Source of the DNA: Owenia fusiformis
Lineage: Eukaryota; Annelida; Polychaeta; Sabellida; Oweniidae
Direction: 5' to 3'
Length of the DNA stretch: 64,000 nucleotides
NCBI GenBank assembly: GCA_903813345.2
Contig: CAIIXF020000011.1
Coordinates: 35,560,166 to 35,624,165, forward strand
The position numbers and the translations under genes were made by a program. Positions 3,448 through 61,092 of this stretch are shown here, piece after piece; the stretch's first letter is position 1, and every line of letters starts with the position of its first letter. The notes below the pieces were generated by a model, which ran no database searches, was not told the DNA's origin, and was given only the letters and a program-made list of their open reading frames with translations.

Positions 3448-3653
3448 TTTGGTAACCGCAAGTCGCCGGAAATGGATCGTGTGTTCTGGCCTTTTCATGT
3501 TTATCAATTTTTGTTTTGCAAAAAAATCATCAGTCATACATTTCCGAACTATTGTTACAAGGGAACTAAATAAAGATTCAAACGTTAACAAGCTTTCATA
3601 ATATGCTATCAAATGAGACTCTCGACTGCCAAACTTATGGATTGGAGTGTATG
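3427..3653. mobile_element. MITE, family A, copy 1
   Basis: The left end acactcccctccataagttt and the right end, whose complement is acactccaatccataagttt, form inverted termini of about 20 bases around some 225 bp without coding capacity. The interior matches the copy at 6296-6493 (for example ccgaactattgt followed by a run with attcaaac). It lies just downstream of the stop of the minus-strand membrane-protein gene, and its left terminus is fused to the 28-bp array. Confidence 0.75.
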
Positions 3654-14000: not shown

Positions 14001-17000
14001 AGAAGGTGTTTTCTAATGACCACATTGGCACATATAAAATGCTGATTGGGGCTCTAATCACCAATTTGTTGAGTGACACATTGTCAGTTCTGCCATATAT
14101 GGTATTACTAGCCATATATGGTATTACCTCTTCTACTTGGTCTTCCTCTCCCTTGCTGAAGTCCTTGAGTTCCTGTGCAGTCTTGATAAGCACTGTGCCC
14201 TAGAAGTTAGAAAATGTACATTATCAAACACAGGGGGCATCTGGTAGTCTACATTTTGCACTGTAAAAGGAGGAACAAATTGTGGAGTCCTACAAGTAAC
14301 TTTAAATGTTATTTAAAGTTACTTGTAGTGAAAAATCAAGTAACATGTCTAATGGAATGTCACAATGGTGGATTGCCTGAATTGAGATGTGTAATAAACC
14401 TTTTGGTGAGGAACATTTCTCTACACAAAACAATTTTGGACAATACGAAAGATGGTCCATGTACACATTTTGGTTAAAGAAAATATGGAATGAAACTTGT
14501 GCTATTAAGGCTCATGAGAAAACATCAATTGACCCCAGTGGGAATTGAACCATCCCTTGCTTTCCTAATGAGTGCTCTTCTACTTATACCTTATCTAGTA
14601 ATCTTAACTTATATGGTGATCTTACCTTGGTTTCAGTCTGCATAATATCTAAAGGACATGAGAAAACTGCTATTTTTGCTTTGTTCACTTTGGTGATATT
14701 TCCTTCAACGTTCCTCTTGAAAACCATCCCCTGGATAACTGATGAATTGGTTACACCTGACCCCTGGAAATAACAAATATAAAACATCACATTCTAACAA
14801 AATGAAATCGATGTGTTGTGATAGTGGGTGGTAATATGAAAGTTAGAACTAACACAAAGTCAATATGTTTACACTGCTCAAACTAGGGATTCAAAAAATA
14901 CTTCAGTTCATGCTGGTGAATATATATAAATTATCAGATTCAGTATTCAGTAGAATTGCTATTGTTAACTGACCATATTCTAATATAAAAAATATACCTA
15001 CCTCTACTTTGGAGACTCTTATATTATCTACATTGAATGTCTTTGACTTTGGATATATTGATACTGAAACAAAAGAAATTATCATTTTAAATGCATACAT
15101 CAGATAGTGATAACCCATGCGTACAACAGATTTCAGTTCATGTTGGAGACATCCAAAAATTAGAGAGGATAATATTTCACGTTTTGGCAACAGAAACCTA
15201 AACTTAATGTAATGTGTGATGCATGCACAACAAATTATGTAAACTCGTCAAGTTTGATTTGTTTTATAATCCCATTGATGTGTAGATTCAATGTAAATTC
15301 AATAGGGTAAGTTGGATTTCCCTCTTGCATTGAACCTGCAACATGAGAGATTGTGAGTGAGGTTGAGATTACATAACTTTGTAGTACTTATTTCATGGTT
15401 TCAATCATTTTATACTGCCATTGAGATGCCAAACTCTAGCTTTTCGTGTTGGCAGTAACATGAGTTTTGTTCCATGAGTATGTTTTTAATTTGAAACTAG
15501 CAAATCTGTTGAATAATTGTGTATGCATTTAAATGGCTCAAAATAAATTGTTTGCGGGTAAACTAGCCCCGGGAAAATAGCATATATTTCCTAAGATAAA
15601 TTATGAGCAATGATCAAACATTTATCACAATAATACACATTCAGAATGAATAAATTGCTTATTTTGCTGCTCAAAAGAAACATTAAGAAAAACCGATACC
15701 TGTACACATAAAAACAGGTTCATGTTTTGGTTGCCCATACATCTTATCCTCTCGATTATATCTAATTATGTCTTAATACCATCTAAGACTTATGTTTTTC
15801 TTTAATAGGTTATGTCCCGTCCCAGATGTTCAAACCTGAAATGGATAATTCCCACCCCGTCTCAAGTTTTTTTTGTCCCATGACATCCCCCCACTAGAAT
15901 TGAAATACTTACTACATGCATTGGTGATGAGATCTGATAGGAAGTCTTCATTTCCATATTGTTTACTCATGACTGAAGTTTTAACAACTTTCTTTATTTC
16001 CGCTTTGTTATCAAGTTCTTCCACTTTGCCGCATGTTAAATCTACAATGTCAAAAGAGAATATACGGGGTGTCCATAAAGTGTCTTTACACTTACTTAGA
16101 CCTTGTATTGTAATTGTAAAGAAACTTCATGGACACCCTGTATAATTTTTACGAAACTACTGATTGTTGTGCATAAATCAAGTTAGTAACATTACCATGA
16201 ATGTTACAATATGATGTCTTAGGGATAGAAATAGTAACATACCTGGTAGAATATCAAGTGCCTTTTTACACGCTAATTCAAAACCCTCAATAACTTCTGT
16301 CAGTGAGAGACCCTACAAACAAACAAAACATAGACACGTATGAATGACAAGTTTTCTAGCAATAAGTAACAACAACAATATATACTGACCAGAATTTAAT
16401 CAGTAGCACTTCCTTTTACCATTTGTGATCATTAAGATTTGGTGTAGTCTTAATCTATAAATTCAATTTATTTATTGATTCATCAAATGAACTAAATTTT
16501 CGAATACTGCATGGGAAAGCAAATTATCTGTAGGCATGCACAAACTAGTGCTTGTTTTATGAAACAGCAGTGTGTGAATATACTTAAAAAGCAAAGGAAT
16601 ATTCCACTAATATGCAGTGAACCTACCATTTGAAGGAGTTCCTCAGCATGTTGAAGGAGAGCCCCAGCAAATATGAGCACAAAGTTGGTTCCATCCCCAC
16701 ATTCCTGCTCCTGCTGCTGGGAGGCCATGACGATCATCTTGGCAGCGGGATGGGCAACCTGATAACAATTAAAAAGAATCATACACATATAGAGGGACAT
16801 TGGGAGGCCATGACGATCATCTTGGCAGCGGGATGGGCAACCTGATAACAATTAAAAAGAATCATACACATATAGAGGGACATTGGGAGGCCATGACGAT
16901 CATCTTGGCAGCGGGATGGGCAACCTGATAACAATTAAAAATAAAAAGAATCATACACATATAGAGGGACATTGGGAGGCCATGACGATCATCTTGGCAG

Positions 17001-20000
17001 CGGGATGGGCAACCTGATAACAATTAAAAAGAATCATACACATATAGAGGGACATTGGGAGGCCATGACGATCATCTTGGCAGCGGGATGGGCAACCTGA
17101 TAACAATTAAAAATAAAAAGAATCATACACATATAGAGGGACATTGGGAGGCCATGACGATCATCTTGGCAGCGGGATGGGCAACCTGATAACAATTAAA
17201 AAGAATCATACACATACAGAGGGACATTGGGAGGCCATGACGATCATCTTGGCAGCGGGATGGGCAACCTGATAACAATTAAAAAGAATCATACACATAC
17301 AGAGGGACATTGGGAGGCCATGACGATCATCTTGGCAGCGGGATGGGCAACCTGATAACAATTAAAAATAAAAAGAATCATACACATATAGAGGGACATT
17401 GGGAGGCCATGACGATCATCTTGGCAGCGGGATGGGCAACCTGATAACAATTAAAAAGAATCATACACATATAGAGGGACATTGGGAGTCTCATTAACTA
17501 TATGTACAAGTGCAGTAAAACCTGTCACACTGTAAAGTAAAACATGTACATATGCTCAATTTTCCATACTACACAAATCAGAGTGAGGATTTTTTGTGTA
17601 AACAACTATTAAACAACGCTTGGATTTGGCTTACATGATACAGGCATTGTTATATTGTAGACAAAATTATATCTTCTCAAATTGCTATGTGGTGATTCCA
17701 TGGGCACAGCTCACCAAAATTTTACAAAGTGCAACATTATTTTAAGCTTGAAGTTCACCTCACCTTTATAAATGTGATTCACCTATTTAATTCTAGTACA
17801 TAATATAATTTTCAAAAATATAATTTGTCACAATGTGATAAATGATGTTATAATACTCACCTCTAGCTCTCTTACAATAGTGGCAGCATCATTTGTCACA
17901 AATAGTTTATCTAAATGGTTGATCACCATTTTGTTTTGTCCTTAAAATAAAAACATATTTACTACAGATTACTATGTATTACAGGAAGGCAAGTGCATTT
18001 AGTTTCTAGAAAAAGTGGATAATATCATTTTTTCAAACTAACATACCCATACCAAACATAAGTGTATAAAACATCTAGATTCAATATTTCAGTTGGGATA
18101 TCAAAAAATTATATTCCACATCTTTAAGATTTATACGAAAGGTTTGGAAAATAAGTGACACTCTTCCTTCTTGTTTGCATGCAAATGTTCATAAATATAT
18201 AAAACTATATAATATGTTACTTGTTCCGTACCATTTGGGCCAAAAGTTGATTTTGTAGTGTTCATTAACTCCTTACAGGCCTCTATGTTCTTATACACTG
18301 CTTCTTCTAAACCACTGTAATGCTGAGAGACAAAAGAACTACATGTAATGAAGGAAAAGTTGTAAAAACATTTAAAACTAAGTCAACTTTATATTAAAAC
18401 ATTTATTATCTTGTCAATTGTATGAAAATGTAAAAAAATTTATATATGTCAGCTTATTGCTTTCTGGAGAACAGTCAAGGTTTAACTACAAATAGCCCTG
18501 TAAATTGACATTTTTTTTATATAATCTAATTTAATATAATCATCTGAGCAATAGAAGGACCAATCATCAGAATAACACCTTTATCATGAGTATTTCTGCA
18601 CAGCATTTTCCCCATTTGTTCGTTATTGTATATTCTCTCATTATAGCTCAAAGTATCACTAGGGACCCCGGGAACAACCCAAGATTGCGTTTTTTCGAAA
18701 TAGGCAGCTTTAAGAGTCAAGCAACTTGGCCCAGGGTTAAAGCATCCTACGACCCCCACTTACGTTTGCGCAAACCATTTGTCAGTCAATGTTTCTACAA
18801 TGCTGGAGAATGAACTACACATTTCACACTTAAATTACCTACCTCGATACACTCATGAGTATTTAAGAATCCTTTTTATATAGTTGAACCGCCAAATGTA
18901 TGGGTTTATCGGCAGAACGAATAGATTTTTGTTTTTGAATTTGAAATATTAAAGACTTCAAGATGGCAGAAGCTTGGCAGAGGGGGATTTCCCTTATGAC
19001 CGGAGCACGCAAGGACTGGATATACCACTAAATGGAGGAATTTGACGGTTTTAATAAGTTAAATATTACATGCAAATATTGCTATCAAAAATGAAAATCT
19101 CTTCTTTCTGCCGATAAGCCCATACAATTGGTGATTCAACTACATGAAAAGAACTCTAAAATACTAAGGAATGTATGGAGGTAGGTCATTTAAGTGTGTA
19201 ATGCGTAGTTCATTCTCCAATATTGTAGCAACATTGCCTGACCAATAATTTGTGCATACAACCACAAAAGTAAGTGGGAGTCGTAGGATGCAATAAGGCC
19301 CAGGGATCACTGCATATAAACCTTGACAGGGCAACATGGGGTACCTATTTGAAATTTGGTGTGGCAACAGACACAACTTTTAGGATCTGGAATGAGAATG
19401 CCCCCAACATGATACTTTTGAGATATGACCAAGATCATTTTTTTGAGCATGGGCTTTCAAGAGATTGGGTTAGGGGAATAACTAGATTTTTCCAATTTCT
19501 GGTTTGAAAATGGTTTGAGCATGTTAGGTCATTTTCCTCAAAGATTTGCCATTTTCACGGGGCCTTTTTCAGATTGGTATTGTAATATATTGATATTAGA
19601 CCAGCACTGCCAAATATTATATACAGTGAAACCCTAGGGAGACTGGGACAAGAAATACCTAACAGACAGGTGATTTGAAAAATCAAACCCAAATTTAGGG
19701 GGGGGGGGGGGGGTGTTTGACAGATGGTGATAACTTTAGATCTCTTGGGATTTGTCATTTAAAATAGAGAATTAGGAAAGATCATGGAATTTCTATTTCT
19801 ATTTATTTTGTCAATAAGAATGACAATTGAAGAGATCTATGCATCATTAAAAATGTCTGATGAATAAGATTTGATAAAAAACATTCTAGAATTTTCTGGA
19901 AGCTATCGGTTGTCAATGCAAATCGATGCATCTTTCAAAAATTTGAAAAGCACATGGCGACTTTGAGTTTGAAATACTACAAATTTTATGAGAACATCTA

Positions 20001-25600: not shown

Positions 25601-28600
25601 TAATGACTTGTATTTTAGAAAAACAGTTGATCAGTTCAGTATATTTTACATTATATATTTGCACAGAAGTGAACACATATATTTACATTAAAACTTGTCT
25701 CGTTTAAATAGCACTGAGATTGGTCAAAAGTGTTCTGATTAGCAGGTGTTCACATTTCAAAGATTCAAATGTGAATCAATGGGAAATAACAAAAGTGATA
25801 CTAATGTAAATCTTCACATTGAGAGGTGTTCAGAGTTGAGAGGTGTTCAAAATAGAAAGGTGTTTGGAAAAGGTAGGGTATTAGTAGGGTATGTTCTGAA
25901 AAGCGTGTCCATGGGGACAGATTAAAATATAAAAAGTCTGTCATCTATGGAAAAGTATGTCCATATTAAAGGATAACAGTTATATTCATATGGACCTTGT
26001 CTTGCTTCAAGAAGACCTCCTTATCTACTTTACTAACACATTGAGGTACAGTTGGGGGTTGGGGGGGGGGGGGTCACAAGAGCTTGTAGCTGGACTCATA
26101 TGAACTGGAACTATACATATTGAGACAGTGTTGATGAATGCGTAGGTAGAGAATATCAGTGTACATAAACATATAAATTAGCACCCAAAGCAATTAAATG
26201 TTCTCTACTAATCACTGTTGATTGCTTCCTCCTGAAGTAACTCTGAAGAATATTACCTTGAAGGGCAAGTATAAATAATCAGAAGCATTAGACGTTATCT
26301 TAGTCTCTCTTCCCCCATACTCTTTATGGGAGAATATGGATTGATGCAAGGTTATCATTTTAACAATAAGTAAGTTAGAATTGAGTTTTCATCTTGTGGG
26401 GTTCCAAGATGCAAGTGCAAAGTCACACCATACTTGATATTGTCTAATCAACCCAAAAGGAGCAGTTCTGATTTTTGGGGTCACCTTGTATTTCTGCATT
26501 ATTATGTAACATTGTATTTTGCCAAAATATATAACCTTATCCATGGCAACAATGTAAACATGCATTTTGATTTTGATATTTATTTTTTAATAACACAGTT
26601 TAAATTCCAGAGTGAATAATCTTAATCTGACACTATATATGGCAATTTCGAGATATCAGACATATTGAATTTTTTTAATATGGCAGTCTTCAAGGAGATA
26701 AACCTCTATATTTAAATTCAAGTATTTAATTTGGCTATTTTGATTCGCCAAATTAAAACGCTCGCCTTTAAAGTCTTATCTATTGAAAAAAATCTGATAA
26801 ATATCAGGAAGTGAATTTGTATCCTTTGGACTGTGGTTCAAGGTTTCAGTCAACAGTAGTTTTATGTTTTACTCTTTAGTTCTTCCCATAATCTCTAATC
26901 ATAACAGATAGAAAATCCAAGATGAAAAGAATATAATTTGACATATAGTTCACCCTTTTTATGTCCCCACCACATAGTGTGGGGCCATATTGTCGGCCTA
27001 GGCGCGTCTGTCTGTCCGTATGTCCGTCTGTCCGTCCGTCCGTCCGTCCGTACGTCCGGCAGTTTTCTCCAAAACCGCTACAGATATCACCTTCAAATTT
27101 TCAGGGTTAACTTATGAGTGCATCTAGATGTGGATGAAAAAAAATTAACTCGATACCTACTTCCTGTCGGCCATTTTGAAGTCAAATGCTAAAATCCTTG
27201 TCTGCAAACTTTAAGAAAAATGGCTTCACAGTTGCTTTTGAAACTTTAACATCTTGTTCAGCTCACTTCATTCTAGATCTGATTAGGTTTTGGACCTGTT
27301 AGCTCAGTCATGTCAGCCATTTTGAATGTTTTAAGAAAAGTTAGCGCGCGATAATACTTTGTATCATATTGAATGGTGTTTTTCAGTTTTCATACTTTAA
27401 TTATTTTGTAGCTTTATAAATAATTGCAGGTGTACTTTGTTGTAAAAGCCTATGTTATTGTTAACAGTAGTTATATGTGATAATTTTGTAAAAAGAAATC
27501 GGCAAAAACTCATAATCACTTTTTTATTGTCGGCCATTTTGGATTTTCCGTCCTAAAATTTTGTCTGTAAAGTCTTGTCTTCGCATTTTCAGGTGAACCG
27601 TTTGGTAGATCAATTTCAAATTTTCAGGGATGATTTTTAGTATGAAAATCTAGATCTGATTAGTTTTTGGGCATTCTGGGTAAATGTCAAGGCAGCCATT
27701 TTGGATTTTCCGTCCTAAAATCTTGTCTGTAAAGTCTTGTCTACGCATTTCCAGGTGAACTGTTTGGTAGATCAATTTCAAATTTTCAGGGATGATTCTT
27801 AGTATGAAAATCTAGATCTGATTAGTTTTTTGGCATTCTAGATAAATGTCAAGGCAGCCATTTTGGATTTTCCATCTTAAAATCTTGCCCGTAAAGTCTT
27901 GTCTACGCATTTTTTGGTGAACCGTGTGGTCGATCAATTTCAAATTTTCAGGGATGATTCTTAGTATGAAAATCTAGATCTGATTAGTTTTTTGGCATTC
28001 TGGGTAAATGTCAAAGCAGCCATTTTGGATTTTCTGTCTTAAAATCTTGCCCGTAAAGTCTTGTCTACGCATTTTTAGGTGAACCGTTTGGTAGATCAAT
28101 TTCAAATTTTTAGGGATGATTCTTAGTATGAAAATCTAGATCTGATTAGTTTTTGAGCATTCTGGGTAAATGTCAAGGCAGCCATTTTGGATTTTCTGTC
28201 CTAAAATCTTGTCTGTTATGTTTTGTCTACGCATTTCCAGGTAAACCGTTTGGTAGATCAATTTCAAATTTTCAGGGATGATTCTTAGTATGAAAATCTA
28301 GAAGAGAATAGCTTTTTGGCATTCTGGATAAATGTCAAGGCACCCATTTTGGATTTTCCGTCCTAAAATCTTGTTTGTAAAGCCTTGTTTACATGTTTTC
28401 TGGTTAACTGTGTGAGGGATCAATTTCAAATTTTCAGGGGTGGTTCTTAGTATGAAAATCTAGAACTGACTAATATTTTTTGGCATTCTGGGTAAATTTT
28501 AAGGTGGCCATTTTTGATATTCCGTCCTCAAATTGTGTCGGTAAAGTCTTGTCTACTCATTTTTAGGATAACCATTTGACGGGATCACCTATAGGTGGGG

Positions 28601-31600
28601 ACATTTTGTACACATTTGTGTTCTTGTAGTGATTTTCCTGTAGTAATTAGCCAATTTTACTCGCATCCTGTTTGTACAGTACTAAATTATTCTTCCTTGG
28701 ACAAATCTGCATGTAGGAATAGTATAGGAAAAAGCGTGCATGTTTGGTAAGCTACAAATTGAGATTATGATACACTTTTGATAAATAATTGATTGAACAT
28801 CATGATAAGCCATTGTGTTTTATGAAACGCAGACTGCATTTGCTAGTATGACCCATTAGCTTATAGTTTCTCATTACAAGTTCTATATAATGCTTTATAA
28901 CAAAACAAAACAAGTTCTATACGATCTCTCCGTTATTACTAGATAGTGTCGGGATAAAGTAAAATATAACATTTACTAGCTACGTCCGTAACTATATTGT
29001 GTAGAGTTGTAACTCGCCAGAAAAATCCAACTCGAGTTCAACTTGCCAAATATTTCCAAAACTCGAGTAAAACTCGAGTTCATTCATTTCGTCCAGTACA
29101 TATTGTAAACCCGGGTATAAAAAATTACTGTAACTTCAAGCGGCAAGTTTCTCTGGTTTAGTCTCATCTAAAAGGTGTTTAACACGTTGGGGCCATAAGA
29201 AAGTGTGGTATTCATTGCAGTTATCTCATATTTCAATCAAAAACGATCTGGTATGGACGTCACCACATACGGTAAGGACGAGAGATCGCTAGAATCTAAC
29301 CAAACAATATTTTAGAAAACCCAGAAGGGCCCCTCAAATTAATGAGGATTATCTTCATTATTTATACTAAAGACTGCTGGTTATCGATCTAAAGTTAAGA
29401 CTTATGATCTTATTTTAATGATAGATCATCTTTTTTATGTAAAAGTCGTGTAAACGACGTGAGAATAAGGGGACCATTTTACTCAATTTTAGTGACTACT
29501 CTATTATCGCCCGTTGAGTTCCTTCGATAGTCGATCTTTTCTGATTTTTTTGGTGTAACTCTTCATTCCACGATATTTGTTGAACTTTGTGAAGCTTTGA
29601 GAGTGTTTTTAGGTGACGGGCGCTAAATATGGCGATCATTGGTATATTTATTCCACTAATGAAGTAATGTTGCACGATCTCTGGGACCCGAATTCATTTT
29701 ACATGCTTGCAAGATAGGCGAAACTCGCGAGTTGACTCGAGTTATAGCTAGCTCGCGAGTTGAAATAGATTGCGAGTTTCTAGAGGACAACTCGAGCCAA
29801 TGTATAGGCAGCTCTGACGAGCTGTACTCGAGTTACTGACTCGGGAGTTACACCTCTAATATTGTGGCACCACAAGGAAATCAGCTAGAGTTTGCTTCAT
29901 CAAAAATGACAAAATTATTAGATTTTATTCCTCATCTGTTTGATATCTTTTGGCTGAGTTGAGGCCTTGTAATTGGTGATTGTTGGTAGTGTTTTTTTTG
30001 TTTTATTATCAGGCATTATATTATATGGAGTTAGGACAGGTTGTTCTGTGATTTATGGTTGTTATTGAGGGACCGAATCATAAGTAGCAGCATATAGCAA
30101 AGTTAAGTCATGATTCACAAGCTTTCAGTTGCTCCAACTAGATGAAATTATAACCACCATGGAGGTTGATGATGACAAGGTAAATCATGATGTTTATTTT
30201 GTCTAAAAGTAGGAAACAAAGGAACCTTTTTTCTGAATATCATAAAGCAGATAAACACTCATAAAATGTTTTTAGAAAATTGAAAGGGGGCCAAGAAAGT
30301 TAGCATAAAAATTTTGGAAAATATTTTGATATAATCCCAACCAAGTTAATGAGGCTCAAGATATAAATATAACATTATATATGTGGTACAGTTACCGAAG
30401 AAACTAATTGTTAATGTGGATAGCACTATTGAATCAACTTAACATATTTTTATTGTCTCACATGAGGATAACCATAATATCTCTATTTTTCTCAGCCATG
30501 AGTTGTTTCTAATGAGTATCAGTATGATTGTCTCATATTACCTACATAAATTGCAAGTCCTCCATTCCTATGCCATTTGCAAGTCCTTAATTCCCTATGC
30601 TATATACAAGTCCCTTATTCCCTATGCTATATACAAGTCCCTAATTCCCTACATTATTGCAAGTCCCCCTATTAGTGATCCATCTGGGTTCTGTGATATG
30701 CCATGAGGTATACTGTGATATGCTATGAGGTATACTGTGATATGCTATGAGGTGTACTGTGATATGCTATGAGGTGTACTGTGATATGCTATGAGGTGTA
30801 CTGTGATATGCTATGAAGTATATAAGGGTTATGTACTGGGAGGTTTTGGATATTGGGTATATCCTGAGGGATATATGTATATCTCCCCGAGGGACCGAAT
30901 GGACCAAGGGGAGATATAAATATTTCCCGAGGGATAAACCCTATATCCAAAACCGACCGTACATAACTGGTGTATCTCATACTTGAGTGGGTTTGGGGTA
31001 GATATAACCTCTCCACCTTAGTTTTTTGAAGTGTTTTTATTTTCAGTGGTTGTGAGAAATTCTTCTACACTATTTGATTTTCGAATCTGCGGTTAGTTTC
31101 TGCTTCGTTATTATTCAAATGAGTGGCGTTTTCATGTATATTATCCATGTTTTAATCGAATTTCAGTGTCTTTCCATATATTTATTTCTAATTTTTTCGT
31201 CTAGAGAAATTCAACAATGCATCATTATTACACTGCACGAAAAAAAATATATTGAAAAAGTTCCCGGGAGCGGGATGGATATATTATATCTGCCCGCATT
31301 TGGACTGGAGCGGGACATATAGAATATATCCTGCCCGCTCCTCAGATACGATATATATTCCCGGGTGATATCTACCCCAAACCCACTCAAGTATGAGATA
31401 CACTGTGATATGCTATGAGGTATACTGTGATATGCTATGAGGTGTACTGTGATATGCTATGAGGTGTACTGTGATATGCTATGAAGTATACTGTGATATG
31501 CTATGAGGTATACTGTGATATGCTATGAGGTGTACTGTGATATGCTATGAAGTATACTGTGATATGCTATGAGGTAAGGTATACTGTGATATGCTATGAG

Positions 31601-34600
31601 GTAAGGTATACTGTGATATGCTATGAGGTATACTGTGATATGCTATGAGGTAAGGTATACTGTGATATGCTATGAGGTATACTGTGATATGCTATGAGGT
31701 TTACTGTGATATGCTATGAGGTATACTGTGATATGCTATGAGGTGTACTGTGATATGCTATGAAGTATACTGTGATATGCTATGAGGTGTACTGTGATAT
31801 GCTATGAGGTATACTGTGATATGTTATGAGGTGTACTGTGATATGATATGAGGTATACTGTGATATGCTATGAGGTGTACTGTGATATGCTATGAGGTAT
31901 ACTGTGATATGCTATGATGTATACTGTGATATGCTATGAGGTTTACTGTGATATGCTATGAGGTAAGGTATACTGTGATATGCTATGAGGTGTACTGTGA
32001 TATGCTATGAAGTGTACTGTGATATGCTATGAGGTGTACTGTGATATGCTATGAGGTGTACTGTGATATGCTATGAGGTTTACTGTGATATGCTATGAGG
32101 TAAGGTATACTGTGATATGCTATGAGGTGTACTGTGATATGCTATGAGGTGTAATGTGATATGTTATGAGGTGTACTGTGATATACTATGAGGTGTACTG
32201 TGATATGCTATGAGGTGTACTGTGATATGCTATGAGGTGTACTGTGATATGCTATGAAGTATAAGCATCTTAAAAAGTATGAAGATAAGACACCCAAGAT
32301 AAAGACATGATATTGATCAGTAATGATAATTTTTTGTGGCACTAAGCCATTTACAAGCCACTGATTTACGATACAGTACGTAATATTATACTTATTACAA
32401 CTTTATGATTAAAATGTTATGCAAATATTCTGGACAAAATCCAGATCCACGTGGTCGTATTGTCATACAGTGAATAATAAGTTTTCTGATGAATTCATGT
32501 CCAATCTATTACATGTAATAGATAAAATACCAGTTCAAGAGTAGTTGTTGATAAGTTAGTCGTATCTATGTCAAGTTCACATCTCAACGTACAGTTAACC
32601 TGTTTCCCATGAACACCAGTGAAACTCTCTATTGATATAAAAAATGGTACAAGAAATGTCACATTGAAAGGTATTTGAATTAGAGAGGTGTTTGGATATA
32701 CAGGTTTTACTGTACATATAAGTACATGTACGAAATGACAATTGGTGTACAATTGTTGTTCATGTTGTATGTCTACTGATGACTTTTAACATGTTACTTA
32801 TAAGATAATTTGATTGGTTCATCCCAGTCATCTCTATTATTACAGAACAGTGTGCTAAGGCCGAAGTTATAATTTTGTCAAAATATTTGAATATTATTTC
32901 ATATTTTTGTGAGCTGACATATAGACTTTCAACAGGATGGCATACTTTATAAGTATTACGATTACCCTTTTTCCCCATTGCTGATTAAATTAACTGCAAG
33001 CATCCATCGTGAAGATGTTAGGTGAAAATTGATATTTTGCAGCAGTTCCTGAATCATTCACACATGAAGGGCACTGTAGTTTTGTCAGGTTTATTTTATA
33101 TCTAACTTTTATATTTCTATTAGTATTCTATATAATTCCATTGTGATATGAATTGAGGTAATCTTTATATCTAAAATGTAATTATGACAGTATAATTTCT
33201 GATAATTATGTGATCTTTGCAATAGTTAAATATAAACATAGGGAAAAGAATTTGCAATGGGAGACTTGCAAATACCAAAATGAATGAGGGTCTCATTCAT
33301 GTCATAGGGAAAAGCATTTGCAATGGGGGACTTGCAAATACCAAAATGAATGAGGGTCTCATTCATGTCATAGGGAAAAGCATACGCAATGGGAGACTTG
33401 CAAATACCAAAATGAATGAGGGTCTCATTTATGTCATAGGGAAAAGCATTTGAAATGGGAGAATTGCAAGTAATAGAATGAATAGGGGACTCATTCATGT
33501 CATAGGCAAAAGCATTTGCAATGGGGGACTTGCAAATACCAAAATGAATGAGGGTCTCATTCATGTCATAGGGAAAAGCATTTGCAAAGGGAACCTTGCA
33601 AGTAACAGAATGAATAGGGGACTCATTCATGTCATAGGAAATAGCATTTGGAATGGGAGACTTGCAAATACCAAAATGAATGAGGGTCTCATTCATGTCA
33701 TAGGGAAAAGCATTTGCAATGGGGGACTTGCAAATACCAAAATGAATGAGGGTCTCATTCATGTCATAGGAAATAGCATTTGGAATGGGAGACTTGCAAA
33801 TACCAAAATGAATGAGGGTCTCATTCATGTCATAGGGAATAGCATTTGCAAAGGGAACCTTGCAAGTAACAGAATGAATAGGGGACTCATTCATGTCATA
33901 GGAAATAGCATTTGGAATGGGAGACTTGCAAATACCAAAATGAATGAGGGTCTCATTCATGTCATAGGGAAAAGCATTTGCAATGGGAAACTTGCAAATA
34001 CCAAAATGAATGAGGGTCTCATTCATGTCATAGGGTATAGCATTTGTAAAGGGAACCTTGCAAGTAACAGAATGAATAGGGGACTCATTCATGTCATAGG
34101 AAATAGCATTTGGAATGGGAGAATTGCAAATACCAAAATGAATGAGGGACTTATTTATGTCAAAGGAAATAGGGGGCTTGCAAATAACATAAGGAATAGG
34201 CGACTATGAATATCATCTATATTTGAAGCAGATATGATATGAATAGGAATGAATAATTTTTTGTGTAATGTAATTGTTAATTATAGATATTTAATTTCAT
34301 GCTTTCCTTTGTTCTGAACATTCTATTGATTTTCTTCTAGCCTGGAACGTGCTTCTTTAGTTTTCTTTATGTCCATTACCTGCAATAAGATACAGTGTAG
34401 TACTATAGTTGTCTGTCACTTTAGTTTGTGAACTCTGCAGTGGCTTAATGAGTCTAGGGTGTTGACGGATTTTTCATTCCTTTTGCTCTTGACATGTCAA
34501 AGTCACCAGAGCCCTTTAGATTTGTCTGTGAGGTACGACATTAGCCAGTATTCTGTTATTTACAGGTGTAGTCATTCTGCTCATTCATTCTATAACATAC

Positions 34601-40600: not shown

Positions 40601-43600
40601 ATGAAAAATGGCTGCCATGTCTAATGACACTTTTGGTAGAAGGTGGCCATTTTGAAAAATGGCTGCCATTTTTGCCATATACTTTTTTGTAAATACGCCA
40701 GCCATGGCTATTCGATTGGATTTGCTAGGTTTTGGCGTTGCTGTTGTCTAGTTAAATTAGTAAAGGTATATATTTTTGTGTGTTTTCAGGCATTTTCTGT
40801 GTTCTTCGTATGTATCGCGGTGACTTCAGATGTGATCTGCTACTTATTTGTTCCAGTACAGTGGCTGTTCTTTGCAGCTAGCACTTATGTGTGGGTGCAA
40901 TATGTCTGGCATACAGGTAAGAACAGTGGCTGTTCTTTGCAGCTAGCACTTATGTGTGAGTGCAATGTGTCTGGCATACAGGTAGGAACAGTGGCTGTTC
41001 TTTGCAGCTAGCACTTATGTGTGAGTGCAATGTGTCTGGCATACAGGTAAGAACAGTGGCTGTTCTTTGCAGCTAGCACTTATGTGTGAGTGCAATATGT
41101 CTGGCATACAGGTAAGAACAGTGGCTGTTCTTTGCAGCTAGCACTTATGTGTGAGTGCAATATGTCTGGCATACAGGTAAGAACAGTGGCTTTGCAGCTA
41201 GCACTTATGTGTTGGTGCAATGGCTGTTCTTTGCAGCTAGCACTTATGTGTGGGTACAATATGTCTGGCATATAGGTAAGAACACTGGCTTTGCAGCTAG
41301 CACTTATGTGTGGGTGCAATATGTATGGCATACAGGTAAGAACAGTGGCTTTGCAGCTAGTACTTATGTGTGGGTGCAATGGCTGTTCTTTGCAGCTAGC
41401 ACTTATGTGTGGGTACAATATGTCTGGCATATAGGTAAGAACACTGGCTTTGCAGCTAGCACTTATGTTTGGGTACAATATGTTTGGCATACAGGTAAGA
41501 ACACTGGCTTTGCAGCTAGCACTTATGTGTGAGTGCAATATGTCTGGCATACAGGAAGGAACAGTGGCTGTTCTTTGCAGTTAGCACTTATGTCTGAGTG
41601 CAATATGTCTGGCATACAGGTAGGAACAGTGGCTGTTCTTTGCAGCTAGCACTTATGTGTGGGTGCAATATGTTTGGCATACAGGTAGGAACAGTGGCTG
41701 TTCTTTGCAGCTAGCACTTATGTGTGGGTGCAATATTTCTGGCATACAGGTAGGAACAGTGGCTGTTCTTTGCAGCTAGCACTTATGTGTGGGTGCAATA
41801 TGTCTGGCATACAGGCAAGTACAGTGGCTGTTCTTTGCAGCTAGCACTTATGTGTGGGTGCAATATGTCTGGCATACAGGTAAGAACAGTGGCTTTGCAG
41901 CTAGCACTTATGTGTGGGTGCAATGTGTCTGGCATACAGGTAAGAACAGTGGCTGTTCTTTGCAGCTAGCACTTATGTGTGGGTGCAATGTGTCTGGCAT
42001 GCAGGTAAGAACAGTGGCTGTTCTTTGCAGCTAGCACTTATGTGTGGGTGCAATGTGTCTGGCATGCAGGTAGGAACAGTGGCTGTTCTTTGCAGCTAGC
42101 ACTTATGTGTGAGTGCAATATGTCTGGCATACAGGTAGGAACAGTGGCTGTTCTTTGCAGCTAGCACTTATGTGTGGGTTCAATATGTCTGGCTTACAGG
42201 TAAGAACAGTGGCTTTGCAGCTTGCACTTATGTGTGGGTGCAATATGTCTGGCATACTGGTAGGAACAGTGGCTGTTCTTTGCAGCTAGCACTTATATGT
42301 GGGTGCTATATGTCTGGCATACTGGTAGGAACAGTGGCTGTTCTTTGCAGCTAGCACTTATATGTGGGTGCTATATGTCTGACATACAGGTAGGAACAGT
42401 GGCTGTTCTTTGCAGCTAGCACTTATGTGTGAGTGCAATGTGTCTGGCATACAGGTAAGTACAGTGGCTGTTCTTTACAGCTAGCACTTATGTGTGGGTG
42501 CAATATGTCTGGCATGCAGGTAAGAACAGTGGCTGTTCTTTGCAGCTAGCACTTATGTGTGGGTGCAATGTGTCTGGCATACAGGTAAGTACAGTGGCTG
42601 TTCTTTGCAGCTAGCACTTATGTGTGGGTGCAATGTGTCTGGCATGCAGGTAGGAACAGTGGCTGTTCTTTGCAGCTAGCACTTATGTGTGGGTGCAATG
42701 TGTCTGGCATACAGGTAAGTACAGTGGCTGTTCTTTGCAGCTAGCACTTATGTGTGAGTGCAATGTGTCTGGCATCAAGTAAGTACAGTGGCTGTTCTTT
42801 ACAGCTAGCACTTATGTGTGGGTGCAATATGTCTGGCATGCAGGTAAGAACAGTGGCTGTTCTTTGCAGCTAGCACTTATGTGTGAGTGCAATGTGTCTG
42901 GCATACAGGTAAGTACAGTGGCTGTTCTTTGCAGCTAGCACTTATGTGTGGGTGCAATGTGTCTGGCATGCAGGTAAGAACAGTGGCTGTTCTTTGCAGC
43001 TAGCACTTATGTGTGGGTGCAATGTGTCTGGCATGCAGGTAGGAACAGTGGCTGTTCTTTGCAGCTAGCACTTATGTGTGAGTGCAATATGTCTGGCATA
43101 CAGGTAGGAACAGTGGCTGTTCTTTGCAGCTAGCACTTATGTGTGAGTGCAATGTGTCTGGCATACAGGTAAGAACAGTGGCTTTGCAGCTAGCACTTAT
43201 GTGTGGGTGCAATGTGTCTGGCATGCAGGTAGGAACAGTGGCTGTTCTTTGCAGCTAGCACTTATGTGTGGGTGCAATATGTATGGCATGCAGGTAAGTC
43301 ATGAGTTTTACATCCTTCTCTTTGAGTTTGGCAACAGGAAATCTTCATTTGATAGCATGTCAACACCTGTTAATGTTTGAATCTTAACTAGACATTATGT
43401 AAGATGTATAACGCTCATTTAAAAAGATATTCTGATATAACTTGTTTGTGAAAATCAGGTTCATTAACTGTCATAATGTTTTACGTGAACCATTTTGCTA
43501 CCAATTTAGTATTTTTGCCTTCGTATGTTTTTAGTTATGCAATTTTTCTAATTTTCAAAATTTCATCTTTGATTTGGAGCTTCTTGAGTAAGTTGTTATG

Positions 43601-46600
43601 TCATCTTAACAAGTAGGATGTCATTAATTTTATACAGAATATGTTTAATATATAACTTTCTTTGTATTTCTGTTTTATAACTACAGTATTATGAAACATG
43701 TCCATTACACATGTAATAATTGTTTAATAACTCATTAGAAGGTGGTGATAAGCAATTTAATAAGATAAAGGTGTTGATTAGAAAGTATGTGTAGCCTCCA
43801 TTTTGTAGAAACACATTTCTCTTTTATCTTTTCAGATCGTGGTATCTGTCTTCCCACAGTATCTCTTTGGCTGCTATTTGTCTACATAGAGGCATCTGTT
43901 CGTCTCCGTGACCTCCGGCCAACACCGCTGAGTTTCCAGCTAAACCTTTGCAGGCCATTTGCGGCACACTGGTAAGACGGAGACTATTAATGAACATGAT
44001 AGGGATTTTGTTTTATTTGCAATAATAAATGTACACTTAAAATGTGTAAGTGTAAAAATAGTATAGAGTAAGTAACACTGTCATTCTTAAATAAACCATT
44101 TAATAACCCAGCTGCCGGTAGATAGTTACCAGTTTCACCACCAGGTGGCTGGGTTAGGTAACATGGTAGATATATCAGAAAGATCTCTTAAAAGTAAAAA
44201 TTTAATTTTACTTAATACTGTTCTATTAAAAGATTCTTTTATTTGTTTTTCAGCATTGGCTATCCAGTTGTCACACTAGGCTTTGGTTTTAAAAGTTATA
44301 TTTCTTATAAAATGAGACTCGTAAGTATTAGACATTTTTTTGTCTTATTTTATTGACTCTTTAGATGTCATGACCTGACATATTAGTCATACATGGACTG
44401 AATTTATAATATCTACATAATCTTGTATTTGTTTCAATCAAACAAATCAGTTTTTTCAGGTGTTCGATATATTTACTACGTTAACATATATATATATATA
44501 GATATATTTACGTAACATTGATAAAGATGTCATCATTTCTTCATTATTCAATTCTTTCAGAGAAAACAAAAAGATGTCCAGCGAGACAATGATTTTTACT
44601 ACATGGTTCTACAACAAGCCTTGCCTCCAGAGCTACAGCAGTTAAACACAGAAAAACAAAAGGCAGTCACTAACACAGAAGAAATAGGTAATCATATGGT
44701 CTGTGGCATTGGCTAGGGTTACCGAATAGTCTCGCTTCAAGACTGGACCCCTCACCTCACCTCACCCTCTATTCCACCAACATATCACTGTGTAGAGGGG
44801 TGAAGGGCATGTTTTTTATGAAGAAGTGATGTATCCTATGGCAATTTTCTTTAAATGAAAACACTTTTATAAACACATATATCCCCTTGTGTAGCCTTGC
44901 CCAAGTCGGTCTCTTTTACTTAAATTGATTTCTATTATGACCGCCTTGTACTCAAGAGAAAGCCACGTGCTTTACCGACAGTTTGTTGATGTCGGTAAAA
45001 TTTGACCAATCAATGACGGCCCTGCAGCATTAGCTCATTATTATGCACGGTCAAAAACAAGTACACTTTTCACCGGGACTTCACGAACAAATCTTGGACG
45101 AATTCATCATGAAAATACAAATATTTTATCAAATAAATATCAATGAGAGTAGTGGATGCCGGAGCATCGAACGGATAACCAAAGGTGAGAAGATTTCAAC
45201 AATAAACGTTGAAACGATCGCTGAACATGTAGGCTGAGATTCAATCACCGATCGACGACAACATGACCCGCTATATTGGACTTAGGTCTTCGTGCATTTT
45301 CATCGCGAAATCAGTTTTAAATCAACATTGAATCGCATGATTTAATTTATATTAATGACTCTTACCTTCCAATGTACATTTAATTACAAAATATATAGAA
45401 CACTCGATCAGATCGTTGAATTTCAAGTCATAGATGGAAAGTTTGTTTTGTTTATGCAGCTCAACCTGATAACGTTTTGATAGGTCATTCAGCCTGAAGT
45501 CACACATCGTGTCCACGCGATATCTGTCAATCAATAAGGTTTCGCAATACCCCTTCTAGCGTAGGTATTATAGAAATCTCGAAACCGTTGAATATTTCAG
45601 CATAATAACAGCAGAGATGTATTGGATTGTACAAGGCGGTAATAATTCAAGATCAGATAAGTAAAAAATACCGACTTGGGCAAGGGTACCCCTTGTGGTT
45701 CGCATTCATAATTAGATACAACAATTATTCAGTCAAACCAAGCGGAATCTTATATTTCAATGGATTAATAGTTCCAATAACTGGTAATGAATCAATCCAT
45801 ACCTTCAACGTCACATGTTTTATTCTACAAATGCTGGATGCCTTCAAATGATGTGTTAAATGTCATCAGTCTTGGGCAAGGTGAAGTACATCAATCTATT
45901 TTTGTAGGATATCAGACATCAAAGCTATAGAATCTGAAATTGAATCATTATATTATTGAACCTTATATTCTTTGAAACTGCAATGTTTTTATTAAGTATT
46001 CTTGTATTGTATTACTAATTTGTTTTTAGATGCTTCGAAATAAAAAAAATTGAATGTGAATTCTTTGCCTTAGAAATTAAAGAATGTTATTTCATCCCTG
46101 AATATTAATCTTGAAGAATTTTGAGCTTTTGTGGTGAAGAAAGATTGGGTAATTTGATGGGAGGGCACTGTGCAGGGGGGCTGTTAGACAGTTTGTATTC
46201 TAAATAATTGCTAAGGACTTATTTCTTCATGACCAGTTGCACGCTTCAGGTTCCATTTTTGTCCATATTTTTAAACTTTTTACTAATTCCTCTTTCATCT
46301 CTTGTACCCATTCATACATATTCTACATATTTCCAGCATTAACTCCAAAAGATAAAGAGGAGGAAATCTCATCAAATGGCGTCCAGGTTGCGTCAGCTCC
46401 AGTCAAAAACAGTAAATCCAACAGTAAGGCGGACAACACACCCTCCACTACATCTCCAGACAAAGCAGACAAAGATATTAAACACAAGCATACTAACAAC
46501 ATTGAAGATTATGAATACATAGAGAAGACATTGTCTAGGAAACAGAATAACGTCAATGAAAATGATGAGACATTAGACCAGGACTCACATCAACACAACA

Positions 46601-56936: not shown

Positions 56937-59900
56937 TCACCTCAATACTAATGATGAGAAGTCTACAATTTCCCTTTTATAGAATTTGTGAAAAGTTTCA
57001 GCATTGGACCAGTTGGCAGTGTTGACAATTGTATTGATCGACATGCCACTAGTCCATGCTTTTGAAGTAGTTGCAGATCTAGTAGAGTGACCTTTATAAG
57101 TTTTAGTATCTATACCTGCCTGTTCCATAACAGATTTGAGCCATCCTGCTATTGTACAAGTTACTACAGGATTGAATGGTCTAACATTTGATATGAACAG
57201 TCTAGATTTTTGTTGTTCAGTTTTCCTAAGTTCACTTGTCATTTCTAAGTAATCTCTGATACATTTGACAACATCTAAGTTGGGATTTTCTATGAAACTT
57301 TGAAAAATCAGAACATTATATGGTTTCTTAGGTGTTGATGTTTTGCAAAGTCCATCTGTGGGGGCTTCTATTTCGAACCCTTTATCAATGAAAAGTTGTG
57401 GATTCATTTTAGACAGTTCTGATCCTCGACATGCACTTGTTAGAGCCATTAACATGGATAGTTTTTGAGAAAGAGATTTCCTACTAAGAGTTTTATTATC
57501 TCCTAAGTCATTTATGTGATTCAAGACCAAACCTACATCCCAAGTATGACCATATCTTGGTTTTGGTGGTTTTGTGTTAAAGAAACCCTTCATTAACATG
57601 GAGATTGTTGGGTGTTGTCCTACCTTAATTCCCTCTATTGGTTCATGATATGCTGAGATTGCTGATCTATAGTTATTAAGAGTAGGATATTCCTTACCTG
57701 TTTCAAAGAGGTATGTTAGGAAATTGGCTACATCTGCCAGAGGGGATTGAAATGCATTAATTCCCCGTTCAGTACACCAACTTTCCCACTTTCCCCAGGT
57801 GTAGTTATAAGCATTTGTTGTGCCTCTTCTTCTAGATTTAATGATGAATTCTGAAGCATTTTTTGAAAAACCTGTTGTTTTATAATGTGACCTGAGATTT
57901 TCCATGCCGCTAGTTGCATGTTGTTTTGACTGATTAGTGAGTGTGATTGATTCTGTGGAGATTTCAGTAAGTTCTCTGAAGTTGGTAAAAGTATTGGATT
58001 TTTGATTGACATTTGTATCAGTTGTGGGTACCATGGTTGAGATTGCCATATTGGGGTTATCAGAACTAAATCTGCTTTCTCCCTCCTTACTTTTTCTAGT
58101 AATCTGTTTATAAGGCAAAAGGGAGGAAAGGCATACAGCAGTTGATCTCTCCAACTCTGTGTAAATGCGTCCACCGCTATCGAGAAAGGATCTTTCTTCC
58201 AGCTGTAATATTTGATTGTCTGAGCATTCATTCTGTTTGCAAAGAGATCTATTTTCATTGGACCCCATATTTTGTTCAGTTGTGAGAAAATGCTCTTGTC
58301 CAGCATCCAATCTGACGAGTCCTTGAATACTCGTGATGCATTGTCTGCTATCAGATTGGCTTTCCCTGGAAGATATTCTGCTGTAATTGTGATCTGTTTC
58401 TTCAGACAATGTGAAAAGATTTCTTTGGTTAATTCTATTAGTTTCAATGATCTGGTCCCCCCCAGTTTGTTTATGTGACTCATTGAGGTTATGTTGTCTG
58501 TTTTTATCAGCACATGTTTGTTTGTCAAGTTTCGAGTAAAAGTGATCACTGACAGATGAATTGCTTTTAGTTCTAACCAATTGATGTGTTGAGTTTTCTC
58601 TTGAGGTTTCCACTGACCCTGAATTATCTCCCCTTGACATTCTGAACCCCAACCTGTCAGACTGCTGTCTGTTGATATGATCAGATCCGGTTCGCTGATT
58701 TTGATTGCTCGACCGTTCCATTGATCTAGTTTGGTTACCCACCAAATGAGTTCCTTTTTGATTTCTGGTTGGAGTGTTACTGTTGCTGAATATGACTGAT
58801 TGGATCGTTTCAAGCCTTGTGTTTTCAACATTTGTAAATGTCTGAAATGAAGGGGTGCTGGGAGAATTGCCATTGTTGATGCAGACAGTTTGCCTATTAT
58901 TTGAGCTATTTCTTTCAATGTTACTTGTTTCTGATGATATAGGTTTTTGCAATCTGATTGAATTTTGTTTGCTTTTTCTCTTGGCAATTCTATTGTCATT
59001 TTTTGAGTGTTTAACAGAAACCCCAGATATTCCATGTTTTGAGATGGGACTGTCATGGACTTTTTCCAATTTATTAGAAAACCTAGATGTGTTAGGAGAT
59101 AAATTGTTGTTTGCATTTGATTTTGCAATTCTTGAGGGGACTGATTTAGAATTATCAAGTCGTCGAGGTAGATAATTGTTCTTAGACCCAACTTTCTTAA
59201 AATTGACATGGGGACTTTCATCAATTTTGTAAAAATTCTTGGACTTGATCCCAGGCCGAAAGGTAATGCTTTCATTTGATAAATTTTCCCCTGCCATTGG
59301 AATTTCAGGTATTTTCGATGGTGTTTTGCTATTGCTATGGTCATATAAGCATGACGTAAGTCGATTTTTATCATGAAATCGTTTTCTATTATCATATGTT
59401 TCAACATTGTCAGACTCTCCATCTTGAAATGATGATATTTGATGAAGGCATTTAGAGGTTTGAGATTTATTATCGTTCTTTTCGAACCGTCCTTCTTCGG
59501 TCTGAGAAAGAGATGTGACAAGAATTGAACTTTTGATGGATTGCTTTCTTCTATTGACCTTTCTTCTAAGAGATTCTGAATTTCTATTGACATTTCCTGT
59601 GTTTCTTTTTGACTGAAGTTTGGCCAAAAGGGGGTTTTGTTCTGGACTGGTTCTTGCATAAATTCTAGCTCGTACCCCTTTACGATGTTGATAATATTTG
59701 TATTTCTTGTTATTTTTTGCCAGTTCTTGACGAAGAAAACAATTCTTCCCCCTACATATTGAATTTTGGGGATTGAGTGAAAATTTAATTTTTTCAGATA
59801 TCGACTTACCATTCCCTCCGTTTGAGGATTCTGCACCTCGTTTGGGTAAGGTTCTGAATAAGATGTCAGATTTAGATTCAACATACCTTGTTTTTCCACC

Positions 59901-60209
59901 TCTGGGTGGTCTTTGGCCTCTGTTGGTGTTTCCTCTTCCACCTTGGCCTCTACCAGTACCTCTGTTCTGGTTGTTTGTATTGTAGTTTTGTTCATTTCTT
60001 GCCCCTCGGCCTCTACCATATGTCGAAGGGCCCCTTTGAAAGGGCTTGTTTTTGTGGAAATTTCGTTTGATTTTTTCCATCTCAATTTTTTCAGTGCTTT
60101 CATTTTTCAGAGCTTTATAAGTTTTCTTGTTTAACAACGTTGCATGTTTCTTGATGTCTTTCTCATTTTCTCTCAGAAAGTTTTTAGCCATTTTTTTTAT
60201 CAAAGCCAA
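56937..60209 (-). CDS. DIRS tyrosine recombinase frame (with gag-like N-terminal part)
   Basis: Open for 1090 codons. First ATG is 60191-60189 (the track-style start at 60209 is TTG). The N-terminal part (NKKTYKALKN, then a Gly/Arg/Asn-rich RGG stretch) looks like a continuation of gag. The middle 650 codons overlap the RT frame and show no domain. From about 57850 leftwards comes a tyrosine recombinase: SAM-like part with YNYTWGKWESWC, first catalytic Arg in TSACRGSEL, the HxxR motif in GHSTRSA, and the tyrosine in FHKFYKR near the end. It would insert the circular DNA copy by strand exchange. It could be made from a spliced or frameshifted message; which is not shown. Confidence 0.85.
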   Translation of the reverse strand: MALIKKMAKNFLRENEKDIKKHATLLNKKTYKALKNESTEKIEMEKIKRNFHKNKPFQRGPSTYGRGRGARNEQNYNTNNQNRGTGRGQGGRGNTNRGQRPPRGGKTRYVESKSDILFRTLPKRGAESSNGGNGKSISEKIKFSLNPQNSICRGKNCFLRQELAKNNKKYKYYQHRKGVRARIYARTSPEQNPLLAKLQSKRNTGNVNRNSESLRRKVNRRKQSIKSSILVTSLSQTEEGRFEKNDNKSQTSKCLHQISSFQDGESDNVETYDNRKRFHDKNRLTSCLYDHSNSKTPSKIPEIPMAGENLSNESITFRPGIKSKNFYKIDESPHVNFKKVGSKNNYLPRRLDNSKSVPSRIAKSNANNNLSPNTSRFSNKLEKVHDSPISKHGISGVSVKHSKNDNRIAKRKSKQNSIRLQKPISSETSNIERNSSNNRQTVCINNGNSPSTPSFQTFTNVENTRLETIQSVIFSNSNTPTRNQKGTHLVGNQTRSMERSSNQNQRTGSDHINRQQSDRLGFRMSRGDNSGSVETSRENSTHQLVRTKSNSSVSDHFYSKLDKQTCADKNRQHNLNESHKQTGGDQIIETNRINQRNLFTLSEETDHNYSRISSRESQSDSRQCITSIQGLVRLDAGQEHFLTTEQNMGSNENRSLCKQNECSDNQILQLEERSFLDSGGRIYTELERSTAVCLSSLLPYKQITRKSKEGESRFSSDNPNMAISTMVPTTDTNVNQKSNTFTNFRELTEISTESITLTNQSKQHATSGMENLRSHYKTTGFSKNASEFIIKSRRRGTTNAYNYTWGKWESWCTERGINAFQSPLADVANFLTYLFETGKEYPTLNNYRSAISAYHEPIEGIKVGQHPTISMLMKGFFNTKPPKPRYGHTWDVGLVLNHINDLGDNKTLSRKSLSQKLSMLMALTSACRGSELSKMNPQLFIDKGFEIEAPTDGLCKTSTPKKPYNVLIFQSFIENPNLDVVKCIRDYLEMTSELRKTEQQKSRLFISNVRPFNPVVTCTIAGWLKSVMEQAGIDTKTYKGHSTRSATTSKAWTSGMSINTIVNTANWSNAETFHKFYKREIVDFSSLVLR
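57728..60103 (-). CDS. DIRS reverse transcriptase / RNase H
   Basis: 791 codons in the frame +1 from the recombinase frame. In order: the DIRS pre-RT block (VGGRIVFFVKNWQKIT, VVKGYELEF-like), the RT palm with FLRPKKDGSKRTIINLKPLN, KIDLRHAY, ALPFGLGSSPRIFTK and the catalytic YLDDLIIL, then RNase H (ISTDSSLTGWG, NWLELKAIH, KTDN, ADNASR). A C-terminal block with KIDLFANRMNAQ, YAFPPF and PIWQSQPWYP is typical of DIRS and Ngaro RT proteins. The key Asp residues are present and no stop interrupts the domain. The ATG at 60103 is the first in frame, but the true start could lie further in or rely on frameshifting from gag. Confidence 0.92.
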   Translation of the reverse strand: MKALKKLRWKKSNEISTKTSPFKGALRHMVEAEGQEMNKTTIQTTRTEVLVEAKVEEETPTEAKDHPEVEKQGMLNLNLTSYSEPYPNEVQNPQTEGMVSRYLKKLNFHSIPKIQYVGGRIVFFVKNWQKITRNTNIINIVKGYELEFMQEPVQNKTPFWPNFSQKETQEMSIEIQNLLEERSIEESNPSKVQFLSHLFLRPKKDGSKRTIINLKPLNAFIKYHHFKMESLTMLKHMIIENDFMIKIDLRHAYMTIAIAKHHRKYLKFQWQGKIYQMKALPFGLGSSPRIFTKLMKVPMSILRKLGLRTIIYLDDLIILNQSPQELQNQMQTTIYLLTHLGFLINWKKSMTVPSQNMEYLGFLLNTQKMTIELPREKANKIQSDCKNLYHQKQVTLKEIAQIIGKLSASTMAILPAPLHFRHLQMLKTQGLKRSNQSYSATVTLQPEIKKELIWWVTKLDQWNGRAIKISEPDLIISTDSSLTGWGSECQGEIIQGQWKPQEKTQHINWLELKAIHLSVITFTRNLTNKHVLIKTDNITSMSHINKLGGTRSLKLIELTKEIFSHCLKKQITITAEYLPGKANLIADNASRVFKDSSDWMLDKSIFSQLNKIWGPMKIDLFANRMNAQTIKYYSWKKDPFSIAVDAFTQSWRDQLLYAFPPFCLINRLLEKVRREKADLVLITPIWQSQPWYPQLIQMSIKNPILLPTSENLLKSPQNQSHSLISQNNMQLAAWKISGHIIKQQVFQKMLQNSSLNLEEEAQQMLITTPGESGKVGVLNGELMHFNPLWQM

Positions 60210-61092
60210 AGATTGGTATCAAGATTTCTAACCTCCTGTAATAGGTTACCATTTGGAAGGCTTGTCCTAGGAGTAATACTGATTGATCTAAGAGAAATTT
60301 AATCATATCATTGTTCAAGTCTGCTCTTTTGGTGTTATAAAGTTTCCAGAGGGCACCCAACGGTCCCATAACATCAGATATTTTGTTCTGGCTAGATTTC
60401 CAACTTTGATCAGATTTTGATGCTGATTTTGAGGACATTTTCTCACTGTATTTATCAAGTTTAGGTGGTTTAAGGTATTTCAACTTTGGTCTAGCATTCT
60501 TCTCTAACATATTGTCAATATCATCCATTGACAACAGTTCTTGAGACCAGAAACGTTTAACATATTTCTCTTGGTCTTTAGTTAAACACCATTCTTTAGA
60601 TTTTAAATCTTCATGTGGATCAAACATTCCCTTTGACATTTTTTTAGATTTTCTTTTATGTCTATCTGAGTCAGAAGAGTCAGAATCTGAACTATTGCTA
60701 GTTGAGCTGGACGAATCACTACTTGAAGATGAACTTGAGCTTGAACTAGATGAAGTGTCAAAAGACCTTGACTTATGTCTTTTCTTTCTTGACGACTTTG
60801 ATGTTTTCTTACCTTTTTTGTGTTTGCTATGTCTATTCGACCTACCAGGTCTGTAGCTCACATCTGATAAATTGTCATGAAAGACAAATTGATCATCGTT
60901 TCTCCTAGTTCTTTTCGTACTGGCTATCAGCCTATCTGGACTTCTAGTCCTTTTAGTATTTGATTCTTGGCAATCAACTTGTGAACATCTATCAAAGCCA
61001 TCATCATCATCATGATCAGTTTCTACACGAATATTTTCATCATTCCTATCTTGACATTCACCTTCTTCAAGGTTTGTTTTTTCTTTGTCCAT
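60184..61092 (-). CDS. DIRS gag-like ORF1
   Basis: 302 residues from ATG at 61092 to TAA at 60186-60184. The N-terminal half is charged and Ser-rich, with a long serine run and KR-rich nuclear-signal-like patches. The C-terminal half has a folded-looking segment (KYVKRFWSQELLSMDDID; VMGPLGALWKLYN; LLLGQAFQMVTYYRRLEIL) resembling DIRS gag proteins, which package the RNA. The stop overlaps the ATG of the next frame in ATGGCTAA, just after eight A, so reinitiation or slippage could couple the two. Confidence 0.8.
   Translation of the reverse strand: MDKEKTNLEEGECQDRNDENIRVETDHDDDDGFDRCSQVDCQESNTKRTRSPDRLIASTKRTRRNDDQFVFHDNLSDVSYRPGRSNRHSKHKKGKKTSKSSRKKRHKSRSFDTSSSSSSSSSSSSDSSSSTSNSSDSDSSDSDRHKRKSKKMSKGMFDPHEDLKSKEWCLTKDQEKYVKRFWSQELLSMDDIDNMLEKNARPKLKYLKPPKLDKYSEKMSSKSASKSDQSWKSSQNKISDVMGPLGALWKLYNTKRADLNNDMIKFLLDQSVLLLGQAFQMVTYYRRLEILIPIFGFDKKNG

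Follow-up and report, generated by a model that had tools for sequence, protein, structure and literature searches.

The macoilin gene of the annelid Owenia fusiformis carries dozens of extra copies of one of its own exon ends. In the 64,000-nucleotide stretch analysed here (the window), a profile search placed macoilin on the plus strand, with stepwise matches to PF09726 across positions 22624–50671. At its exon 3, the end of the exon and the adjoining donor site are repeated in tandem into the following intron (Table 1). We consider it very probable that this array is a tandem duplication of an exon–intron border, of the type called a mirage in amphioxus, and that it is spliced out silently.

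Table 1. Coordinates of the macoilin array and of exon-edge arrays in other genes (window positions unless a contig is given)
Feature	Position	Strand	Remarks
Macoilin exon 3 (third of the matched coding exons)	40790..40916	+	PF09726 positions 74–117, 84.6 bits; AG/GT borders read from the sequence
Tandem array of exon 3 end plus donor	40858..43298	+	39 units, 65-bp consensus; mirage-type minisatellite
Cryptic acceptor AG	40876..40877	+	Within the exon 3 FFAAS codons; copied into each unit
First donor, GTAAGA	40917..40922	+	CAG/GTAAGA; 8/9 matches to CAG/GTAAGT
Stretch with 60- and 99-bp steps	41155..41532	+	One frame open for 125 codons; differs from the exon 3 frame
Units 19–21	41946..42140	+	Letter-for-letter equal to units 34–36; trace of a block duplication
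Units 34–36	42915..43109	+	Identical to units 19–21
Last unit's donor, GTAAGT	43294..43299	+	9/9; its AGT equals the AGT at 40855–40857, the left border
Macoilin exon 4	43836..43971	+	Joined to exon 3 in phase 1; borders read from the sequence; PF09726 match
CCT8 exon-edge array	16718..17488	-	Exon start with its acceptor in about nine copies; mirror-image counterpart to the macoilin array
Kinesin exon-edge array (L028)	L028 446–3289 = C2:23266345–23269188		About 18 copies of exon start plus acceptor; 159 bp, 97% match
CCT2 locus (L012)	C11:133000–142900		Fetched part contains four exon-edge arrays; gene named by eye

Tandem Repeats Finder (TRF) described the array with a period of 65, 38 copies and a score of 3450. 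Splitting the same interval by motif gave 39 units: 27 of 65 bp, six of 60 bp and two each of 64, 63 and 36 bp. The six 60-bp units have a 5-bp deletion in common, and unit 31 is shorter by one base. Units 6 and 9, the two of 36 bp, have no donor and were excluded from the column counts, leaving 37 complete units. Unit 1 consists of the last 59 bases of exon 3 and the donor GTAAGA. When it was used as the query in a DNA search of the whole assembly, there were 39 matches, every one of them inside the macoilin array.

A preliminary description of this locus had seen about 39 tandem copies of the 3′ end of exon 3, each pairing a cryptic acceptor in the FFAAS codons with the genuine exon 3 donor, and this anatomy is borne out. 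The distance from acceptor to donor is 39 nt, with phase 1 at both ends, and 26 nt separate each donor from the next acceptor, so that every second unit is reachable, as had been claimed. The acceptor AG is preserved in all 39 units. The donor GT is present in 35 of the 37 complete units, the exceptions being unit 12 (GA) and unit 16 (GC). An in-frame TGA occurs in 13 of the complete units, in line with the third or so that had been reported to have TGA in place of TGG, and the other 24 are stop-free. In 12 units the stop replaces the first tryptophan (TGG to TGA); in unit 25 it replaces the second.

With equal phases, widely preserved splice sites and sufficient spacing at every second unit, the units could be optional in-frame exons of 39 nt, through which macoilins would gain 13, 26 or more residues in a membrane segment. 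The preliminary description had proposed such micro-exons; we regard this use of the units as highly improbable. Micro-exons are very short exons, usually under 30 nt, a length that the 39-nt unit exceeds. Besides the stops in 13 of the 37 units, there is no sign of protein constraint on the unit peptide, although the test is a weak one. Compared with unit 1, the array shows 18 types of coding substitution, 7 synonymous, 9 missense and 2 nonsense, and the synonymous share of 7/18 is not clearly above the expected 24% (P = 0.12). Of the 36 complete units downstream of unit 1, 15 have cysteine in place of tyrosine. One observation does favour optional exons: variation is lower in the acceptor block, where 1 of 16 columns is variable, than in the coding part, where 16 of 39 are (P = 0.012). 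The difference speaks mildly against plain neutrality, or is a chance result among several comparisons. The pyrimidine tracts of the unit acceptors (7–10 of 16 positions) fall short of the exon 4 tract (15 of 16), but this argues little, because they come near the value of exon 3 itself (11 of 16).

The reading frame indicates which donor should be the normal one. Reading on beyond the first donor meets a stop at 41009–41011, ending 95 bases downstream, so the first donor is the one expected to be used. For the same reason exon 3 cannot simply continue to a boundary at 43293, the last donor, an outcome that the preliminary description had allowed. Later donors in the array are shifted in frame or preceded by a stop. 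Most likely, the spliceosome joins position 40916 to exon 4, and the whole array would then leave with intron 3 and be silent or nearly silent as a result. Exon definition, picking the copy closest to the far end of the exon, could be the reason why the first donor would be used.

The same donors could instead act as a cluster of decoys that lowers or tunes macoilin output through mis-splicing and decay. The real one is followed by a further 36 complete units, of which 34 have GT, and five donors match the U1 consensus better than the first donor: those of units 26, 28, 30, 33 and 39 have 9 of 9 positions, compared with 8 of 9. A later donor or a TGA unit, if used, would shift or truncate the frame. 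However, chaperonin, myosin and kinesin genes carry similar arrays (see below), which favours a general mutational process, and amphioxus mirages are reported to leave splicing undisturbed (PMC3087553). We therefore think a decoy function very unlikely. Among the readings offered in the preliminary description, a neutral array fits best, in agreement with the reports on amphioxus.

The RNA of the array may fold between units. Counting G–T pairs, 22 of the 38 junctions allow an 8-pair hairpin between the donor and the next acceptor, and six more allow one of 7 pairs. Six inner junctions read GTAAGT/ACAGTGG or a one-base variant of it; at most of the others GTAAGA or GTAGGA is followed by ACAG, and pairs with the following CTGTTCTT into the 8-pair hairpin. 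Folding of four units gave z = −2.39. Such a hairpin might affect splicing. Compensatory changes in the stem were absent from the unit listing, and we therefore do not take the stem as evidence of function.

The junctions also bear on how the array arose. We infer that the founding event was a tandem duplication of a short segment spanning the end of exon 3 and the start of intron 3, probably mediated by the three bases, AGT, that its two ends share. The left flank ends in CCAGT, the last unit ends in GGTAAGT, and the six inner junctions quoted above are what a founder joined at AGT should leave. Expansion to 39 units would have followed by unequal exchange or slippage, at times involving many units together, and the palindrome at the junctions could have helped slippage. 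Twelve pairs of identical units occur among the 37 aligned units, and units 19–21 are repeated as units 34–36, so the array appears to have grown at least partly in blocks. The displaced identical blocks are an indirect sign, within one assembly, of length instability. Growth would have been directed into the intron, so that the real exon was preserved intact as the first copy.

An array of this kind might also be a short duplication lengthened by faulty assembly. There is a precedent, in that the authors of the amphioxus globin study rebuilt one mirage from sequencing traces, the draft having seemingly been misassembled (PMC3087553). The preliminary description had likewise entered a proviso about an assembly artefact, but the macoilin array does not look like one, because its units differ from each other and three of them recur exactly at a distance. 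The 26 distinct types of substitution, the displaced identical block and the deletion common to six units are all unlike read error. We judge an artefact of length extremely unlikely, and return to a genuine border duplication that grew into the intron.

The macoilin array is not the only one of its kind in this genome. Because CCT8, within the window, carries an exon-edge array of the mirror-image type, chaperonin genes were sampled, together with myosin and kinesin loci, giving 234,938 bases from this genome alone. For the chaperonins, eight genes outside the window (named by eye) covered 62 of 78 matches, one of which was a repeat copy, leaving 61 exons. The myosin sample comprised 13 stretches with 59 of 92 matches, and the kinesin sample 19 stretches with 72 of 144 matches; 17 of the remaining kinesin matches were array copies on contig C2. 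Stretches were selected by match density, except that the kinesin array of L028 was already visible beforehand and this pick was thus not blind. Exon borders were judged by eye from the printed sequence and entered by hand. The PF00118 search had missed the short CCT8 copies, and arrays were therefore detected by TRF and self-BLAST on the fetched loci; those counted were merged TRF arrays with a period of at least 25, taken at the best-scoring period. Weak self-matches in L006 (40 bp, 82%) and L022 (91 bp, 79%, 974 bases apart) were not counted, nor were arrays that merely touched or adjoined an exon border (L038 1–458, L014 913–1865 and L037 656–765).

An exon border lay inside 21 of the 49 minisatellites found: 7 of 24 in chaperonin, 5 of 9 in myosin and 9 of 16 in kinesin loci. 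Leaving out L028, the count is 20 of 48. The donor side was involved in 11 cases and the acceptor side in 10; one of the CCT2 arrays, for instance, repeats a 53-bp donor unit about 20 times. By an eye tally, 17 of the 192 matched exons carry an edge array, and four further edge arrays are at exons that Pfam does not list.

Whether this exceeds chance depends on how many borders are present. With random placement and the detected borders only, 11.4 of the 49 arrays would be expected to contain one (P = 0.0003 for the observed 21). The expectation rises to 14.5 with 30% extra borders (P = 0.010), to 17.0 with 60% extra (P = 0.084) and to 19.7 when the borders are doubled (P = 0.37). Our guess is that borders are undercounted by 30–60%, and the excess is therefore suggestive only. 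These figures replace an earlier estimate, made with the smallest period (33 arrays, 12 with an edge), which had given P values of 0.0009, 0.0097 and 0.047 when the detected edges were scaled by 1, 1.3 and 1.6. Edge arrays are also more homogeneous than the other arrays, with a median match of 96% compared with 87.5% (P = 0.0055). The edge arrays may be young, or may have been converted from an exon copy under constraint; a bias of TRF and of the eye towards clear arrays would fit as well.

A bolder reading of the same data would be that minisatellites favour exon edges in this genome and that gene conversion from functional exons sustains the arrays as a reservoir of splice sites that gives rise to new micro-exons, shifted borders and new introns. 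Macoilin, with its 24 stop-free complete units, would then be an example in progress, and rare isoforms would contain one or more 13-residue inserts. This we hold to be improbable.

Other repeats and elements were noticed alongside. Further minisatellites in the window are at 3072–3448 (28-bp units), 27533–28578 (162 bp), 31392–32263 (22 bp) and 33237–34166 (66 bp). On the minus strand, long reading frames at 56937–61092 include reverse transcriptase-like and tyrosine recombinase-like stretches and, by eye, resemble a DIRS-like retroelement. Outside the window, about a dozen tandem matches to positions 18–84 of the myosin head lie at C9:37986009–37994334 and may represent a large group of alternatively used exons.

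The macoilin array is real and striking, but its setting, an annelid genome in whose sampled loci edge arrays are frequent, is the more interesting finding. Among the matches listed from the open-licence literature, mirages have so far been named gene by gene and in amphioxus alone. If 17 of 192 exons sampled in an annelid carry edge arrays, this class of mutation would extend more broadly across animals. Such arrays are a natural experiment in how dozens of good decoy sites are passed over by the spliceosome, and they bear on the long-standing question of whether tandem duplication at exon edges feeds the gain of introns and exons. Gene finders may be misled by them.

Several known systems resemble the macoilin array in part. 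Mutually exclusive exon clusters, for example those of myosin genes, consist of whole exons repeated in tandem with their splice sites and kept under coding constraint. The macoilin units are likewise tandem coding copies with splice sites; unlike such exons, they are exon fragments, and a third of them contain stops. In human genes within segmental duplications, internal tandem repeats have arisen by minisatellite expansion, some of them at exon–intron boundaries and with the possibility of new introns through cryptic sites (PMC2812944). The expansion at a boundary is shared with macoilin. However, the human repeats have a mean of four 30-bp units and belong to recent duplicates, and the available text of that account describes no large donor array (PMC2812944). 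Minisatellites in intron 1 of earthworm metallothionein provide another case of tandem repeats in an intron of an annelid gene, but they are placed within the intron, and copies of an exon border are not mentioned in the available text (PMC12783039). In intron gain by tandem genomic duplication, the duplicated segment carries splice signals along (PMC4974935), as it does here; in macoilin, the copies lengthen an existing intron at the edge of an exon.

The closest counterparts are in amphioxus. None of the matches listed from the open-licence literature used the name mirage for such a structure beyond amphioxus, although earlier reports are possible, and among the matches listed for macoilin itself no title or abstract opening referred to an array. 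The amphioxus globin genes are reported to contain minisatellite-like tandem duplications of exon–intron boundaries, on the acceptor side in BflGb6 and on the donor side in BflGb9, and the name is taken from the case of Adh3 (PMC3087553). Further amphioxus mirages are reported in PGBD5, and troponin C (TnC) is mentioned as well (PMC3902484). The data on Adh3, together with RT-PCR of the globins, suggest that regular splicing is left undisturbed (PMC3087553). In these reports, as in Owenia, exon–intron borders are repeated in tandem with their splice signals on either the acceptor or the donor side, and the unit lengths (10–72 bp in Adh3, 150–160 bp in BflGb6; PMC3087553) are in the range found here. 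The differences are in number and in host: BflGb6 has 6 and 3 units in two haplotypes (PMC3087553), compared with 39 in macoilin, and the hosts reported so far are cephalochordates, whereas O. fusiformis is an annelid. Two protein families were searched for in this connection. The erythrocruorin linker family PF16915, an annelid family, gave six matches at E up to 1, clustered on contig C6; four exceeded the cut-off, one of them only together with its neighbours, and the best resembled solved haemoglobin linkers weakly (E = 0.0025). Among 14 control genomes, one archaeal genome also had a match, which was below the cut-off. The GFP family, abundant in amphioxus, had no match in the assembly, a negative that does not prove its absence. 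The macoilin units span the exon–intron border, the real exon end is among them, and splice signals are present in many but not all. On this structure, known here from genomic sequence, the macoilin array fits the description of a mirage.
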